DNA from: an uncultured Campylobacterales bacterium
GTDB lineage: Bacteria; Campylobacterota; Campylobacteria; Campylobacterales; Arcobacteraceae
NCBI GenBank assembly: GCA_947503785.1
Contig: CANNFB010000016.1
Coordinates: 1 to 64,000 of the forward strand
Length of the DNA stretch: 64,000 bases
Direction of reading: 5' to 3'
Shown: in pieces, positions 37,321 to 43,857 of the stretch
How positions within the stretch are numbered: the first letter of the stretch is position 1
How the letters are laid out: the number at the start of each line of letters is the position of its first letter
The notes under the pieces: generated by a model
Seen by the model: only the letters and a program-made list of their open reading frames with translations
What the model was told of the DNA's origin: nothing
The model's database searches: none
Program-made: the position numbers and the translations under genes

Positions 37321-37815
37321 TTACAACCTTTGTCCATATCTTTTTTGAGGTCTTGGATAACCAATCTTATGATTAATACTATTCCATCCAACTTGTGAAG
37401 TATTCCCACCATAAAGAGGATCAGCAAATAGTGCTTCAATTCCAAAAGTTAATAGTTTTGAAATCCAAGTTTGAGCATAATCATTTGTGTTTACTATAGA
37501 ATAAATAAGCTCTTTTTTCTCTTCTTGTTTTAAAGTTAAGAACTCAGGAAAGTTTGCTATAAAATCTTGTGTACCTTCAAGTACTAAAGTTTTATCATAA
37601 TCTAAAAAACTCTTATTATTTATATTATCAAGTAAATAATTTATAACATTGAATTCTCTAGAACTGGGCATATTCGAAGTCTTAGGAAATAGTACTTCGT
37701 AAACTTCATCTAAAACTACAAGTACATCTTTTTGTATAGTTTTTGCAATTGAAAGTTGTGTTGATAATGCTAATACTGATATTGTTGTGAATTTAAAAAA
37801 TGTTCTTCTTTTCAT
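37321..37815 (-). CDS. Gluconate 2-dehydrogenase subunit 3-like protein with Tat signal
   Basis: Small subunit (164 residues) of a GMC-type dehydrogenase. The N-terminal K-R-R-T-F-F-K then hydrophobic stretch is a twin-arginine signal. Such small subunits carry the Tat signal for the FAD-containing large subunit, which here is encoded just downstream and lacks one. The conserved C-terminus has GGNTSQVGWNSINHKIGYP. It begins the leftward unit that ends in the diguanylate cyclase. Confidence 0.82.
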   Translation of the reverse strand: MKRRTFFKFTTISVLALSTQLSIAKTIQKDVLVVLDEVYEVLFPKTSNMPSSREFNVINYLLDNINNKSFLDYDKTLVLEGTQDFIANFPEFLTLKQEEKKELIYSIVNTNDYAQTWISKLLTFGIEALFADPLYGGNTSQVGWNSINHKIGYPRPQKRYGQRL

Positions 37816-37892
37816 ACTTTAATTATAGCTAATGTTGTGTGTATGTAATATGTAGTAATTATTTTGTATATAATTTATATATTAAAATAGCA

Positions 37893-37919
37893 ATTTGAGA
37901 GTAGTATTAATTCTCAAAT
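37893..37919. promoter_or_regulatory. Inverted repeat upstream of the AraC-type gene
   Basis: ATTTGAGA (37893-37900) pairs with TCTCAAAT (37912-37919) across 11 bases, 40 bases before the ATG of the AraC/GyrI regulator. It could be an operator or a leader hairpin. The distance to the gene favours autoregulation, but the binder is not known. Confidence 0.4.
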
Positions 37920-37959
37920 AACAATAAAATACCACATAAAGTTTTGAAAGAAGTCAATC

Positions 37960-38805
37960 ATGAATGAAGCAACAAAAAATGAGTATATACAAAGTGTATG
38001 TAAAGTTATTTTATATATTGAACAAAATTATAATAATGAACTTACTCTTGATGAGTTATCAAAAATTGCGAGTTTTTCAAAGTTCCATTTTCATAGAATT
38101 TTTAAATCAATTGTTGGCGAGAGTATGAATGATTATGTTAGAAGAGTAAGATTACAAAGTACTACTTTGCATTTTAAGACAAAACAGAAGATTACTCAGA
38201 TTGCTATGAATAGTGGTTATGAAACAAATGCCTCTTTTTCAAAAGCTTTTAAAAAACATTTTGGTGTTACTCCTAAGGAGTTTTCAAAAATGCAAAAAAA
38301 GATAAAAGGAAATAAAATGTTAGAAGCTAAGATTGTAGAGTTAAAAGATGTTGAGATTTTATATGTAAGAAAAACAGGTAAATATCAAATTGCAGCCCAA
38401 AATGCTTGGGAAGTACTTATGCCTTTTGTTTATAAGAATAAAATTAAATATAAAAAGAATCTTATGGGAAAAGATGCCATGATATTTGGAATAGGCCATG
38501 ATAATCCTCATCATACAGATGTTGATAAACTAAGATATGATGCGTGCATTTCATGGGATGATAAAACAGTAAAACCAGAAGGTGAAATTCAAACAAAAAT
38601 TATAGATGGTGGTAAGTATGCAATGTTTTTACATAAAGGTTCTTATGAAACATTGATTAATACTTATGATGGTGTTGCAGATTGGATTGTTGAAAGTTCA
38701 GTTGAGTTAAGAGAGTTGCCAATAATAGAAAAATATCTAAATAGAGATCCACGAAGAACCAAAGAAGAAAACTTAAAAACTGAGATTTATATACCTTTAG
38801 TTTGA
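37960..38805 (+). CDS. AraC family regulator with GyrI-like effector domain
   Basis: A 281-residue protein. The N-terminal two HTH motifs (about 15-115) contain F-S-K-F-H-F-H-R-I-F and N-S-G-Y-E-T-N-A-S-F-S-K-A-F-K-K-H-F-G-V-T-P, the AraC signature. The C-terminal half (about 125-281) is a GyrI/Rob-type effector-binding domain, with EIQTKIIDGGKYAMFLHKGSY. Such proteins respond to small hydrophobic or cationic compounds, as MarA/Rob/BmrR relatives do. It is preceded by an inverted repeat. The gene downstream has its own promoter. Confidence 0.9.
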   Translation: MNEATKNEYIQSVCKVILYIEQNYNNELTLDELSKIASFSKFHFHRIFKSIVGESMNDYVRRVRLQSTTLHFKTKQKITQIAMNSGYETNASFSKAFKKHFGVTPKEFSKMQKKIKGNKMLEAKIVELKDVEILYVRKTGKYQIAAQNAWEVLMPFVYKNKIKYKKNLMGKDAMIFGIGHDNPHHTDVDKLRYDACISWDDKTVKPEGEIQTKIIDGGKYAMFLHKGSYETLINTYDGVADWIVESSVELRELPIIEKYLNRDPRRTKEENLKTEIYIPLV

Positions 38806-38839
38806 AATAATTTAATAATAAATATATAATTATATGTGA

Positions 38840-38859
38840 TATAATTTCTTCTTATGGAG
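38840..38859 (+). promoter_or_regulatory. Extended -10 promoter and ribosome site of the 937-residue protein gene
   Basis: TGTGATATAAT has an extended -10 with TATAAT at 38840-38845, and GGAG at 38856-38859 is five bases before the ATG at 38865. It indicates that the gene is expressed separately from the AraC-type gene. Confidence 0.65.
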
Positions 38860-38864
38860 AACTC

Positions 38865-41678
38865 ATGGCAAATATTTGTATAAAAAAAGATTGTAATAAT
38901 GAAAGACATGAAGAAGGTAGATATTGTGTCTTCCATTGTGATAAAAAAGATTTTTCAGATGAAAATATCACATTGTTTTGGAGAACTATAAAAGAAACAT
39001 ATTATATAGATGACCGCAGAAATAGTACGTATAAACCAGTTGAAATATTCAATGTAAAATTTCCAAATTTCGAAATTGATAGAAGTAGGTATAGGTCTAA
39101 TACAAATTTCTTTCATGACCATTTTTCTTCTCGTAACCAAACTATAAAATTTATAGACTGCATATTTTTTAATGATTTCAATTTAAATAGTGAGGAGATA
39201 AAACATATAATATTTGATAATTGTATTTTTCATGGAGATTTAAAAAAAATACAACTTCAAACACTAGAAATAATAAACTCAGAATTTAAAAATAAAATCT
39301 CCTTTGAGAATATAGTATGTGATGTGCTAAAGATAAATAAAAATTCAGAATTTCGAAAAGATGTAAACTTTGTTGTTTCAAAATCTTTTAATGTTGTTGA
39401 TTCAGTATTTAAAGGTAATTCTATATTTGTGGGAAGAATTGAATGTTTAGCAATAATTGAAAAATCCAAATTTAACAAAACACTTGAAATCTCAAATACT
39501 GATAAAATAAATATAGACAATATTGAAATAAAATCCCATTTGTCATTTTTTAACAAAAATAACAATATACATCTAGAAAATATAGTTTTCTCAAAAAATA
39601 TTAATTTTAATGATTCAATTACCAATATAGTACTAGATAAAGTAGAGATAAATAATGACATTAGTTTAAAATCTTTAAATACCTTAGATATAAAAAATAA
39701 TTCAATTATAAATGGGAATCTAAATTTAGAAAATCTTGGAAGTAATTTAATAATTCATGACAGTAAAATTCGTAAAAAAATTAATGCTTCAAACTTAAAA
39801 AATGTTGATATTAATAATTCAACACTTAATGATAAATTCACTAATATTTGTGCTACTAATGATTTTAAGATAGAAAATTCTGTAGTAAAAGATTTAGAAT
39901 TATGTACAACTCACACATTAATTTTAAGCAATACAACATTAGTTGGTATTGTCAATCTTTTTGGAGATAACTATACTAATGTTACAATTGAAAATTGTAC
40001 ATGTACTAAAGAGTTAATACTCAACAATATCACTGAAAAATTGAATGTGACAAAATTGATTGGATACCCATCATTAAAAATGATTATGGATTGTAAATCT
40101 ATAGTCTTTGATAATTCAAGAATATCTAGTTTTACAATAAACAAAGCAAAAGACTTGTTGATAAAGAAGTCAATTATCAAAGATGATTTTATTATCGAGG
40201 AAGATGCTAATCATCAACTTATATTTGATAATACAAAATTTAAAAAAGAGTGTAACTTTCCAACTATAAATACTCTGACTATTAAAAATAAATGTACTTT
40301 TTCAAAAGATGTTAGTTTTAATAAAATTGAAGTAGGTAATTTTTCGAATACAGATTTTAATGAAAGTGTGAAATATAAAGTTGCTTCTAATGATTTGAAA
40401 TTCACAAAATGTAATTTTAAAAAAGATACTTCTTTTTCATCAACAAAAAAATTATCATTTGATAATTCAGAATTTAATGGTGATTTAATATTTTTTGAAA
40501 CGGTTTTAGATGAAATTGATTTTTTAGATACTATTACGGAAAATATAAATTTCAAAAAAACTACAATAAAAAAGATTTTTTTTAGATCTTCACGGATTGA
40601 AGATAATAAGACTAGAATAAATGGAAATGTAGATTTCTCATACTCAAAGGTTTTTGATATAAAAATTAAGAATACATTATTTTCTGGTCAAGTAATATTT
40701 AATCAACTTAAAAATAATTTAAATTTAAATGATTGCATACATGATACGACTTTTGAAGATAAGTTATTAATCAATAACTCCAAAGTCTTAAATTTATTTC
40801 ATAACTCAGAGAATCTAAAAATTAACCATTTTGACCTAAGTAACTCTACCTTGTTGGTTGAAAATAATGCAATAAAAAAGAGTTCTTTAATTCTAAAAAA
40901 CATAAAAATAAATATCTTTAAATTGAAAGATATTATCTTTGAAGATGATGTTAATTTTCAAAATCTAGAAATAGACAAATTAATTTTTACAAATTCAAAT
41001 ATTGAAACAGTATTTAGAATAAAAAACTGCTTTATAAAAGATATTGAAAGCGAAGATAATATCTTTGAGGATTTACAACTTGTAGATAATCAGTATAATA
41101 ATCATAAAGATATAAAACGTAATATTAGTTTCAAAAATACAACTATTAAAAATGCGGTATTTGATAAATTAAAGTTTAATGAATTTAAGATGAATGACGC
41201 ACATGTTAGTTCGGCAAAAATAGGATATGTGGAGTTTGAAAAAGCAAGTCGAGAAACAAATAGATTCTTTAAAAACTATTATGATTCTATCAGCGATTTT
41301 GTTACGGCAAATAAATACTATGCTCGTGAAATGATAGAACAATTAAAAGTTTCAAAAGGACAAGATAAGTTTATATTTTATTTGAATAAAGGATTTTCAA
41401 ATTTTGGACAAAGTTGGTTATTACCTCTTTTTTGGATGCTAATATGTACACTTATCTTTTATCGAATAGCTAACTTTGATTTATTATCATTAGATGGATT
41501 TAGGGAAAATCATATTACATGGATGTTGAATGATATTTTAAAGTTTTCTAATCCTTTTAGTAAAACATCAACAAGTAGTTATGGAACAATGTATTGGGCT
41601 TGGTTAGGACATAAATTATTGATGACAGTATTTATATATCATTTTGTGGTAGCTATAAAACGTAGAACAAAAAGATAG
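38865..41678 (+). CDS. Large beta-helix-like membrane protein with N-terminal Cys/His cluster
   Basis: A 937-residue protein I cannot name. Residues 5-25 hold C5, C10, H15, C21, H24 and C25 (ending GRYCVFHC), which could form a zinc site. From about 70 to 800 it repeats a unit near 20-21 residues of the form (D/E)-N-S-x-F-x4-x-F-x5-L-x-I, roughly thirty times. This is what a right-handed beta-helix of degenerate pentapeptide repeats looks like. Two membrane segments follow (about 850-867 and 917-931), ending in the basic tail IKRRTKR. The segment before them (SAKIGYVEFEKASRETNRFF, YYAREM) and the two helices resemble C-terminal domains of membrane-linked pentapeptide proteins. It lies alone between AraC and recQ, and function is unknown. 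Confidence 0.8.
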   Translation: MANICIKKDCNNERHEEGRYCVFHCDKKDFSDENITLFWRTIKETYYIDDRRNSTYKPVEIFNVKFPNFEIDRSRYRSNTNFFHDHFSSRNQTIKFIDCIFFNDFNLNSEEIKHIIFDNCIFHGDLKKIQLQTLEIINSEFKNKISFENIVCDVLKINKNSEFRKDVNFVVSKSFNVVDSVFKGNSIFVGRIECLAIIEKSKFNKTLEISNTDKINIDNIEIKSHLSFFNKNNNIHLENIVFSKNINFNDSITNIVLDKVEINNDISLKSLNTLDIKNNSIINGNLNLENLGSNLIIHDSKIRKKINASNLKNVDINNSTLNDKFTNICATNDFKIENSVVKDLELCTTHTLILSNTTLVGIVNLFGDNYTNVTIENCTCTKELILNNITEKLNVTKLIGYPSLKMIMDCKSIVFDNSRISSFTINKAKDLLIKKSIIKDDFIIEEDANHQLIFDNTKFKKECNFPTINTLTIKNKCTFSKDVSFNKIEVGNFSNTDFNESVKYKVASNDLKFTKCNFKKDTSFSSTKKLSFDNSEFNGDLIFFETVLDEIDFLDTITENINFKKTTIKKIFFRSSRIEDNKTRINGNVDFSYSKVFDIKIKNTLFSGQVIFNQLKNNLNLNDCIHDTTFEDKLLINNSKVLNLFHNSENLKINHFDLSNSTLLVENNAIKKSSLILKNIKINIFKLKDIIFEDDVNFQNLEIDKLIFTNSNIETVFRIKNCFIKDIESEDNIFEDLQLVDNQYNNHKDIKRNISFKNTTIKNAVFDKLKFNEFKMNDAHVSSAKIGYVEFEKASRETNRFFKNYYDSISDFVTANKYYAREMIEQLKVSKGQDKFIFYLNKGFSNFGQSWLLPLFWMLICTLIFYRIANFDLLSLDGFRENHITWMLNDILKFSNPFSKTSTSSYGTMYWAWLGHKLLMTVFIYHFVVAIKRRTKR

Positions 41679-41748
41679 AACGGTTCTTATTTAGGGAGTT
41701 ATTAAAGTGTTGAATTTCCTTTAACTCATAATATGATAATATCCATTT

Positions 41749-43857
41749 ATGAATAAAAAACTAAGAATATTAAGAAACATATTCGGACACGATAATTTCA
41801 GATCTTTCCAAGAAGAAGTAGTTGATAACATTTTAGAAAAAAAAGATGTATTAACTATCCTACCAACTGGTGGTGGAAAGTCATTATGTTATCAACTTCC
41901 TGCACTTTTAATGGATGGTGTCACAGTTGTGATCTCTCCCCTTATTGCACTTATGCAAGACCAAGTAAAAGCTTTAAAAGACTTAGATATAAAAGCTTCG
42001 ATGATTAGCTCATCTCAAAGTAATGATGATAATACACGTACTATGCAAGCTTTATTAAAAGGTGAATTGAAATTTGTATATGTAGCTCCAGAAAGATTTA
42101 CTTCAAATGAATTTGTTGGAGTTTTACAAAGAATAAATATTAACTATTTTGTAATAGATGAAGCGCACTGTGTATCTGGATGGGGACATGAGTTTAGAGC
42201 TGAGTATAGAAATCTCAATCGACTTAAACAATTCTTTCCTGATACTTGTATTGCTGCATTTACAGCAACGGCTACAAAAAAAGTAGAAGCAGATATTGCC
42301 GCTAGTTTAAAGCTAGTAAATGCAAAACACTTTAGAGCAAAAACGCAAAGAGACAATCTTGAGATCAAAGTTGAACCTCGTATTGCAAATGGTAGAACTC
42401 AAATACTAAACTTTCTAAAATCACACAAAGGTTTATGCGGAATTATCTATACCTTTACAAGAAAAGAAGCAGAAACAACAGCTCAATTCTTACGTGATAA
42501 TGGATATAAGTCAAAAGCTTATCATGCAGGATTAAGTGCGCAAACTAAAGACGAAGTATTTAATGATTTTGTCTATGAAAATGTTGATATTGTGGTAGCC
42601 ACAATTGCTTTTGGTATGGGGATAGATAAATCAAATATTAGATTTGTTATACATACAAGCTTACCTAAAACATTAGAGAATTATTATCAAGAAATTGGAC
42701 GAGCTGGACGTGATGGTGCGATGGCTTATGTGTATTTACTTTATTCAAAAGGTGATGAGGTAAAAAGAAAGATACAAATAGAAGATGCTATTGATGATTC
42801 ATACAAACAAACTGGACTTGATAAGTTAGAGTTTATGTATAGGTATTGTGTTTCTAATAACTGTAGACATCAAATAATAGCTTCGTATTTTGAAGATGAA
42901 ATAGATACTTGTAATACATTATGTGATAACTGTACTAAAGGTGAGATTGCGCAAATTGATGTAAGTGTAGATGCGCAAAAGTTCTTATCGGCAGTATACA
43001 GAAGTGAACAAAGATTTGGAACAAACCATATCATTGATATTCTAAGAGGTTCAAAGAATCAAAAGCTTTTAGAGTTTGGACATGATAAATTAAAAGTATA
43101 TGGTTTAGGGTCAACTAAGAGTAAAAATGAATGGGTAGCAATAGCAGATAAACTAATAGATATGCAAGCACTTAACTTAGGTGAATTTAGAGTACTAAAA
43201 CTCAATAATCTTGGTATGCAAATTCTAAAAGGAACTGAAAAACTTTTAATAGATGAAGATAAACTAGGAATTGCAGTAAAACAAGAAGAATCAGAACTTG
43301 TACTTTCTTTTGATGAAGAACTGTATGAGAAGTTTAGAACCTTACGAAGACAAATGGCATCAGAACATGAAGTGCCAGCTTATGTAATCTTTGGAGATAA
43401 GAGTTTAAAAGAGTTTTCTTCAAAACTACCAACTACAAAAGAAGAGATGTTAGAAGTAAATGGAGTAGGGCTTGTAAAGTTTGAAAAGTATGGAGAAGAG
43501 TTTATTAATTTATGTAAAGAGATAAAAGAAGAGTTTAAAGAGAAGATAGAAACAAAAGTTCCTTTAAAGAAACTAACTAAAACATATACAGATACTTATG
43601 AATTAGTACAAGAAGGATTTTCATTAGAAGATATTGCAGCGAAAAGAGACTTAGGGATTACATCAGTTTTAGGACATATCTCAGTTTTATTTGAACATGA
43701 AAAAATATCAAGAGAAAAGAAAGAAGAACTTTTAAAAGTTTTTGAAATCCCTGCCGAAATAGAAAGTTGGATTCAAACAGGCTTGAAATTAGATAGTTTA
43801 AAACAATTAAGACAATATTTGTACCTTTACGAGTACATGTTAAAAGAAAAAAGATAG
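41749..43857 (+). CDS. recQ: ATP-dependent DNA helicase RecQ
   Basis: 3'-5' helicase used in recombination and repair. Walker A T-G-G-G-K-S at 40-45 and DEAH at 137-140 lead the helicase core, which ends with the G-R-A-G-R-D motif. Four Cys in C-R-H-Q and C-N-T-L-C-D-N-C form the RecQ zinc-binding region, then winged helix, and the HRDC domain (about 525-600) is followed by an extra helix-turn-helix-like C-terminal extension. The 702-residue length is slightly longer than E. coli RecQ. It starts 70 bases after the beta-helix gene. It overlaps no other gene. Confidence 0.95.
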   Translation: MNKKLRILRNIFGHDNFRSFQEEVVDNILEKKDVLTILPTGGGKSLCYQLPALLMDGVTVVISPLIALMQDQVKALKDLDIKASMISSSQSNDDNTRTMQALLKGELKFVYVAPERFTSNEFVGVLQRININYFVIDEAHCVSGWGHEFRAEYRNLNRLKQFFPDTCIAAFTATATKKVEADIAASLKLVNAKHFRAKTQRDNLEIKVEPRIANGRTQILNFLKSHKGLCGIIYTFTRKEAETTAQFLRDNGYKSKAYHAGLSAQTKDEVFNDFVYENVDIVVATIAFGMGIDKSNIRFVIHTSLPKTLENYYQEIGRAGRDGAMAYVYLLYSKGDEVKRKIQIEDAIDDSYKQTGLDKLEFMYRYCVSNNCRHQIIASYFEDEIDTCNTLCDNCTKGEIAQIDVSVDAQKFLSAVYRSEQRFGTNHIIDILRGSKNQKLLEFGHDKLKVYGLGSTKSKNEWVAIADKLIDMQALNLGEFRVLKLNNLGMQILKGTEKLLIDEDKLGIAVKQEESELVLSFDEELYEKFRTLRRQMASEHEVPAYVIFGDKSLKEFSSKLPTTKEEMLEVNGVGLVKFEKYGEEFINLCKEIKEEFKEKIETKVPLKKLTKTYTDTYELVQEGFSLEDIAAKRDLGITSVLGHISVLFEHEKISREKKEELLKVFEIPAEIESWIQTGLKLDSLKQLRQYLYLYEYMLKEKR

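Follow-up and report, generated by a model that had tools for sequence, protein, structure and literature searches.

The window, which is the whole stretch of 64 000 nucleotides that was analysed (contig CANNFB010000016.1 of an uncultured bacterium of the Arcobacteraceae), carries a gene for a protein of 937 residues between an AraC/GyrI-like regulator gene and recQ (Table 1). The reading frame at 38865-41678 is intact, starts with ATG and is preceded by a good ribosome-binding site, GGAG at 38856-38859. As it is intact and its product is conserved in relatives, a chance open reading frame is implausible. The protein is 44, 42 and 33% identical to three full-length relatives of 958-992 residues (G072, G002 and G082, respectively) and its C-terminus is near-invariant. 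The gene is present in a single copy in its genome. Its G+C content is 22.9%; the genes of the window average 28.6% (sd 3.1). A preliminary description of this DNA had given the gene its own promoter; a strong candidate was found in the promoter-like site TTGAAA-17-TATAAT (11/12), which shares its first bases with the last ones of AraC/GyrI. Weaker promoter matches in that region are expected by chance at 2.6 per shuffle.

Table 1. Features of the pentapeptide-repeat gene and of its site (positions in the window).
Feature	Position	Strand	Basis
Variable segment; ZorB-ZorA-AbiH-like genes here in congener G003	37750..41721		same flanks compared
AraC/GyrI-like regulator gene, upstream, in variable segment	37960..38805	+	neighbour
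Promoter-like site TTGAAA-17-TATAAT, sigma-70 type	38802..38830	+	11/12 consensus match only
Whole gene, 937-aa pentapeptide-repeat membrane protein	38865..41678	+	ORF, conservation, AlphaFold2
Head, residues 1-30, C5 C10 C21 H24 C25, candidate zinc knuckle	38865..38954	+	conserved in relatives
Right-handed beta-helix, diverged pentapeptide repeats, ~35 20-residue coils, residues 90-795	39132..41249	+	AlphaFold2, VIA-align 2, periodicity, Pfam on L029
Conserved helical linker, residues 796-845, RETxRxxK...AN..Y..EM	41250..41399	+	family conservation, AlphaFold2 tail model
Membrane helix 1, residues 852-869	41418..41471	+	hydropathy, AlphaFold2
Short helix between membrane helices, residues 884-895	41514..41549	+	AlphaFold2 tail model
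Membrane helix 2 and basic C-terminal tail, residues 904-937	41574..41675	+	conservation, hydropathy, AlphaFold2
recQ, conserved right flank	41749..43857	+	neighbour

The central part of the protein was predicted by AlphaFold2, run on four long homologues, to form the beta-helix that had been proposed from the letters of the sequence; it extends over residues ~90-790 (pLDDT mostly 80-95) and solved beta-helices align to it. The thirty coils of 20-21 residues given for it were revised to ~35 coils of period 20 in residues 90-790. Hydrophobic residues in this part recur with a period of 20 (autocorrelation z 4.4) and also of 40, 10 and 5; the 20/10/5 periodicity is the pentapeptide-repeat signature, with four pentapeptides per coil. 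Using VIA-align 2, HetL, AlbG and EfsQnr were aligned to residues ~530-814 (Z 12.3-13.7; HetL Z 13.7, 3.5 angstroms, 227 residues), and the first half of the rod was matched to right-handed beta-helices, for example the phage Sf6 tailspike (Z 19.3). The right-handedness of the rod is taken from these structural matches. The Pentapeptide_3 profile (PF13576, curated cut-off 27 bits) scored 16.2 bits on the window protein, below the cut-off, 36 bits on the orthologue L029, 82 bits on the relative L039 and 26.3 bits on L028. From the period, the AlphaFold2 model, the HetL-type alignments and the Pfam scores of the relatives, the rod was identified as a diverged pentapeptide-repeat solenoid. The window protein is a diverged pentapeptide-repeat protein and not a nameless fold. 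The earlier statement that it has no known name is right only in part: the repeat is of the pentapeptide kind, an orthologue lying above the Pfam cut-off, and the whole architecture is that of a family which recurs and is mostly undescribed. With the beta-solenoid rise of ~4.8 angstroms per coil, ~35 coils would give a rod of ~165 angstroms (160-170).

Known pentapeptide-repeat proteins (PF13576/PF00805; HetL, AlbG, EfsQnr) have the same right-handed beta-helix with 20-residue coils. The window protein differs from them by its far greater length, its very irregular repeat, its Cys/His head and its C-terminal two-helix membrane module. Membrane-bound HglK also joins transmembrane helices to pentapeptide repeats (PMC8145042). 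The common repeat fold (Z 12-14 with HetL, AlbG and EfsQnr) and the adjoining AraC/GyrI gene would suit a pentapeptide protein of the topoisomerase/DNA-mimic kind, acting like Qnr or MfpA in gyrase protection or in blocking a DNA enzyme. This is most improbable for a protein that is several times longer and, having two membrane segments, is not soluble; the DNA-mimic reading was dropped on the charge of the rod, which is not acidic (net charge −1 over 700 residues).

The head of the window protein has the spacing C-x4-C-x10-C-x2-H-C. The Cys and His positions of the preliminary description (C5, C10, H15, C21, H24 and C25) were found as stated, but H15 is not conserved: in ten aligned heads, C5, C21, H24 and C25 do not vary and C10 hardly does. 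In 38 members of the family there is a C-x2-H/Y-C core, and x-K comes after it in nearly every case. The head resembles a small zinc knuckle and is a candidate for metal binding; the AlphaFold2 confidence is low over it.

The two membrane segments that had been read from the sequence were retrieved by hydropathy and by two models at residues ~852-869 and ~904-934, followed by the basic tail KRRTKR. Within the family, conservation is highest in the linker that precedes them (R-E-T-x-R-x-x-K ... A-N-x-Y ... E-M). The C-terminal end is fixed, with KRRTKR in the window protein and IRQNTRRK in many members; in the linker and the C-terminal tail, residues R, K, N, E, S, T and R vary little or not at all. 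Residues 774-937 were modelled with AlphaFold2 from 45 sequences (pLDDT 82, pTM 0.72); the model consists of three linker helices, the membrane helix 852-869, two short helices and the membrane helix 904-934. The short helix 884-895 would occupy a position like that of a pore helix. The top two solved matches of this model are both ion channels. The first is HalA of the anti-phage system Hailong (Z 8.0, rmsd 4.3, 148/164 residues); with helical models, a Z of 8 is close to what chance gives. The second is the pore of Kv1.3 (Z 6.3, 82 residues aligned). Other solved structures gave Z 5 or below. Foldseek also ranked HalA first, but weakly (E 0.66). The likeness of the predicted tail fold to ion-channel pore domains is suggestive only. 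The order TM helix, short helix, TM helix is also that of two-TM potassium-channel pores (Ion_trans_2, Kv). In contrast to these, the window protein has no Pfam match to Ion_trans_2, and the filter motif [TS][VIL]G[YFL]G was found in the last 220 residues of 0/64 members; membership of the K+ channels was dropped on this absence of a T-V-G-Y/F-G selectivity filter. Searches of NCBIfam and PADLOC profiles with the window protein gave no family (PADLOC up to E 1), the full length, head and tail had no meaningful sequence match to solved structures, and Foldseek returned no match of the full-length model at E < 0.001. A weak sequence match of the relative L064 to MthK (E 0.4) was not counted as evidence.

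Homologues were searched by the terminal parts and a recurrent family was found, so the window gene is no orphan. The linker and membrane tail, often with the head, recur across Campylobacterota: with the tail profile, relatives were obtained in 65/397 genomes of this phylum when 4-TM proteins that stand alone are counted too, and at 37 named loci, some of them in Gammaproteobacteria, Bacteroidota and Cloacimonadota. Proteus, Colwellia, Psychrobacter and Pseudohongiella are among the genera with relatives. Shorter relatives, typically of 350-650 aa, keep the linker and tail, and many of them the head; the window copy belongs to the longest form of the family, with a rod of ~35 coils. In a maximum-likelihood tree, whose bootstrap is not fully settled, the five long proteins group together (100/100) with L069, L036 and L082 as sister (97/86). 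Besides those of G072, G002 and G082, there is a full-length relative in Sulfurospirillum UBA6810, where it is split by a frameshift. The presence of the family is patchy among genomes. Broken copies were observed at L073:5635-8480 (Sulfurospirillum, frameshift), G002:C1:659558-660697 and G007:C10:16390-16932 (stops), which fits the status of an accessory gene. A literature search found no publication naming this family. A phage or plasmid origin was rejected, as neither the window protein nor the Proteus relative matched any record of a phage or plasmid; the tail profile found no relatives in viral contigs.

The site of the window gene was compared with that of congeners. In G003, the flanks are the same (GMC oxidoreductase operon on the left and recQ, with 85.5 and 85.4% nucleotide identity, respectively), and between them ZorB-like, ZorA-like and AbiH genes replace the AraC/GyrI gene and the window gene. 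The same ZorB/ZorA-like and AbiH set lies by recQ in G001, and G005 has a ZorA/ZorB-like pair, identified by eye from sequence likeness. From the content of these three genomes, the site is variable, and relatives carry defence genes there. The immediate neighbours of the window gene itself, AraC/GyrI and recQ, are not defence genes. No signal-making partner gene or HalB-like gene lies beside it; no RADAR genes adjoin it and no RdrB match was found in its genome.

The preliminary description knew of no described system with this architecture. That is retained for the exact architecture; however, the neighbourhoods of the relatives point to phage defence. When gene neighbours were examined across genomes, restriction, RADAR, toxin-antitoxin and other defence genes were found to recur beside members of the family. 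At four type I restriction loci a family gene lies within the operon or beside it, in the orders HsdM, YhcG, HsdS, family gene, two-gene toxin-antitoxin-like pair (by eye), HsdR (L032); HsdM, HsdS, HsdR, YgjP, family gene (L104); HsdM, HsdS, family gene, KAP NTPase, one more gene, HsdR (L166); and HsdM, HsdS, one more gene, HsdR, family gene (L167). HsdS lies within 6 kb of 3/44 family genes outside the sec site (0.35 expected, P 0.005 by random placement); within Arcobacteraceae this link consists of few cases. An Eco57I-type methylase lies within 6 kb of 15 of the 21 genes of a distant set (1.0 expected, 0/200,000 simulations as high), the 15 spanning five genera; the genomes compared are kin, so that the 21 are not independent events and the simulated P values overstate independence. 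This set belongs mostly to two other families of the order, and its membership was re-examined: the linker and/or tail signature is present in the loci examined. Inside Arcobacteraceae, an Eco57I gene was found within 6 kb of 0/25 family genes. A published comparison in Campylobacter jejuni names a gene described as pentapeptide-repeat that adjoins an Eco57I methylase in a phage-resistant strain; the sensitive strain has an AAA ATPase there (PMC8713573).

Other defence genes lie close to members of the family. At L036 (L036:4207-13987, in G002), RdrA and RdrB are followed after 9 bp by a family gene. The L036 RdrA-RdrB locus adjoins DndC and DndD-like genes, with which a third, small gene is found. 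MNT and HepT genes come after the family gene at L069/L173, KAP-like candidate defence NTPases are adjacent at L082 and nearby at L034, and RhuM-like and PrrC-like candidates are near L101. A ParE/RelE-like toxin gene lies directly upstream of the family gene at L039, L051, L091, L095 and L109. ParE/RelE-like toxin genes are closely alike in several Sulfurimonas-type genomes. At L161:10445-12071, an AAA_21 ATPase and DUF3226 pair, which resembles an OLD/Gabija-like pair, comes directly after the family gene and an Eco57I system. The PADLOC tally of 118 neighbours was without a matched control and was not used as a statistic. By protein clustering, no co-inheritance of the long clade with any single neighbour was found. 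Integrase islands of one kind, with integrases that are 50% identical, hold a long gene (L027) and a short one (L079). In G072, the long gene of the L027 island is followed after 5 bp by the start of another gene (L027:11033-12658), which encodes a different pentapeptide-repeat membrane protein, of 541 aa. Such islands, together with the patchy presence, the G+C content of 22.9% and the broken copies, are what would be expected of a membrane-anchored surface or stress protein that has no immune role and gathers in variable genome spots; we regard this as quite improbable, since tight positions that recur inside restriction operons and behind RdrB are more specific than that.

A second recurrent site was found in Arcobacteraceae. 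In many of these genomes a stand-alone protein of ~160 aa with four TM segments, homologous to the membrane module and with no Pfam match, is encoded between secF and DUF6394-leuS. In 41/41 cases with secF on the contig, its gene follows secF and has the same orientation. The window genome has it too (L110:7402-7890, i.e. G000:C6:29413-29901), and there are equivalents in 44 Arcobacteraceae genomes. This 4-TM protein may be a partner or a brake of the fused module. In addition, 20/53 Arcobacteraceae fusion genes lie in the secF-leuS gap downstream of secF. Both placements favour an envelope or Sec scaffold, in which the membrane module would cooperate with the SecDF translocon or take part in the biogenesis of membrane proteins, the solenoid being a cytoplasmic docking platform. 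Yet secF is present in 104/104 genomes and the module was found in only 62, the clade of the window protein is never at this spot where its location is visible, and the sister genes of the long clade adjoin defence genes. The gap may be merely a tolerated insertion spot. On this balance, we consider the Sec-linked role unlikely.

A role of the family in defence is likely: the family recurs by restriction, RADAR, MNT-HepT and KAP genes, and the site of the window gene holds Zor/AbiH in a congener. This link is supported as an association; the mechanism is one that we infer. Our best explanation, with a rough probability of 0.45, is that the window gene encodes an inner-membrane-anchored pentapeptide-repeat protein, a probable component of anti-phage immunity, in which the solenoid or head senses and the linker opens a pore. 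The head and rod would be in the cytoplasm (N-in/C-in), judging from a basic tail on the inner side and the lack of a signal peptide. What the head or rod recognises may be a signal of infection or else a partner from the adjacent defence system; the linker could act as a transducer that opens an oligomeric membrane pore. Depolarization and growth arrest would follow, on the model of HalA of Hailong. Against this explanation stand the absence of a PADLOC match, the non-defence neighbours in the window, the lack of common neighbours of the long-clade genes, the location of 20/53 genes at a housekeeping secF spot and the absence of the Eco57I link in Arcobacteraceae. The weak HalA match, the missing K+ filter and the lack of an adjoining signal-making gene also count against it. 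The same defence neighbourhoods would also fit a membrane-tethered scaffold or adaptor without a pore, bringing restriction or other enzymes to the place of phage DNA entry. The long solenoid is suited to protein docking and the selectivity filter is absent, but a polar linker that is conserved and a C-terminal tail that is kept strictly would suggest a role beyond anchoring, and the tail model resembles channels, so this alternative is given a low probability. We put forward only tentatively, as something we would sooner doubt than accept, that the family is a widespread new class of anti-phage effectors, an ion-channel-like pore gated by a pentapeptide solenoid with a zinc-knuckle sensor, used alone or as an add-on to restriction, RADAR or toxin-antitoxin systems.

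HalA and RADAR are among the closest known systems. HalA (Hailong, PDB 9nyi) has a DNA-binding part, and the beta-solenoid and Cys/His head stand in its place in the window protein. The predicted fold of the linker and membrane module may be alike in the two, and the family has a defence context as well; however, no sequence match to HalA was found and the window gene has no adjacent HalB nucleotidyltransferase. HalA is described as an ion channel that is blocked by the poly-dA of HalB (PMC13275509); as the window gene has no HalB-like neighbour, only the design of HalA was compared. RADAR variants carry optional small membrane proteins, SLATT or Csx27 (PMC11676413). At L036, a pentapeptide-repeat membrane protein is found where SLATT or Csx27 would stand. 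The likeness to RADAR (RdrA-RdrB) concerns this one locus only: the family is neither SLATT nor Csx27, the window gene is without RADAR neighbours, and no family gene was found in the short stretches examined around the RADAR loci L147-L153 of the phylum.

The superfamily of pentapeptide-repeat proteins is very large, and few of its functions are known (PMC8145042). A membrane-anchored branch lying by defence genes gives many genes annotated as ‘pentapeptide repeat-containing protein’ a concrete function that can be tested. If the explanation is true, a sensor-rod-pore design would be added to bacterial immunity. The recQ-side and secF-leuS sites of Arcobacteraceae are spots worth scanning for defence genes. 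On the recQ side, the ZorB/ZorA-like genes are located at L143:4958-8487 (G003), L146:4828-8302 (G001) and L145:5543-8005 (G005), and in G003 and G001 AbiH takes the place in the Zorya-like set that is expected for other Zor genes (PADLOC scan of G003 only).
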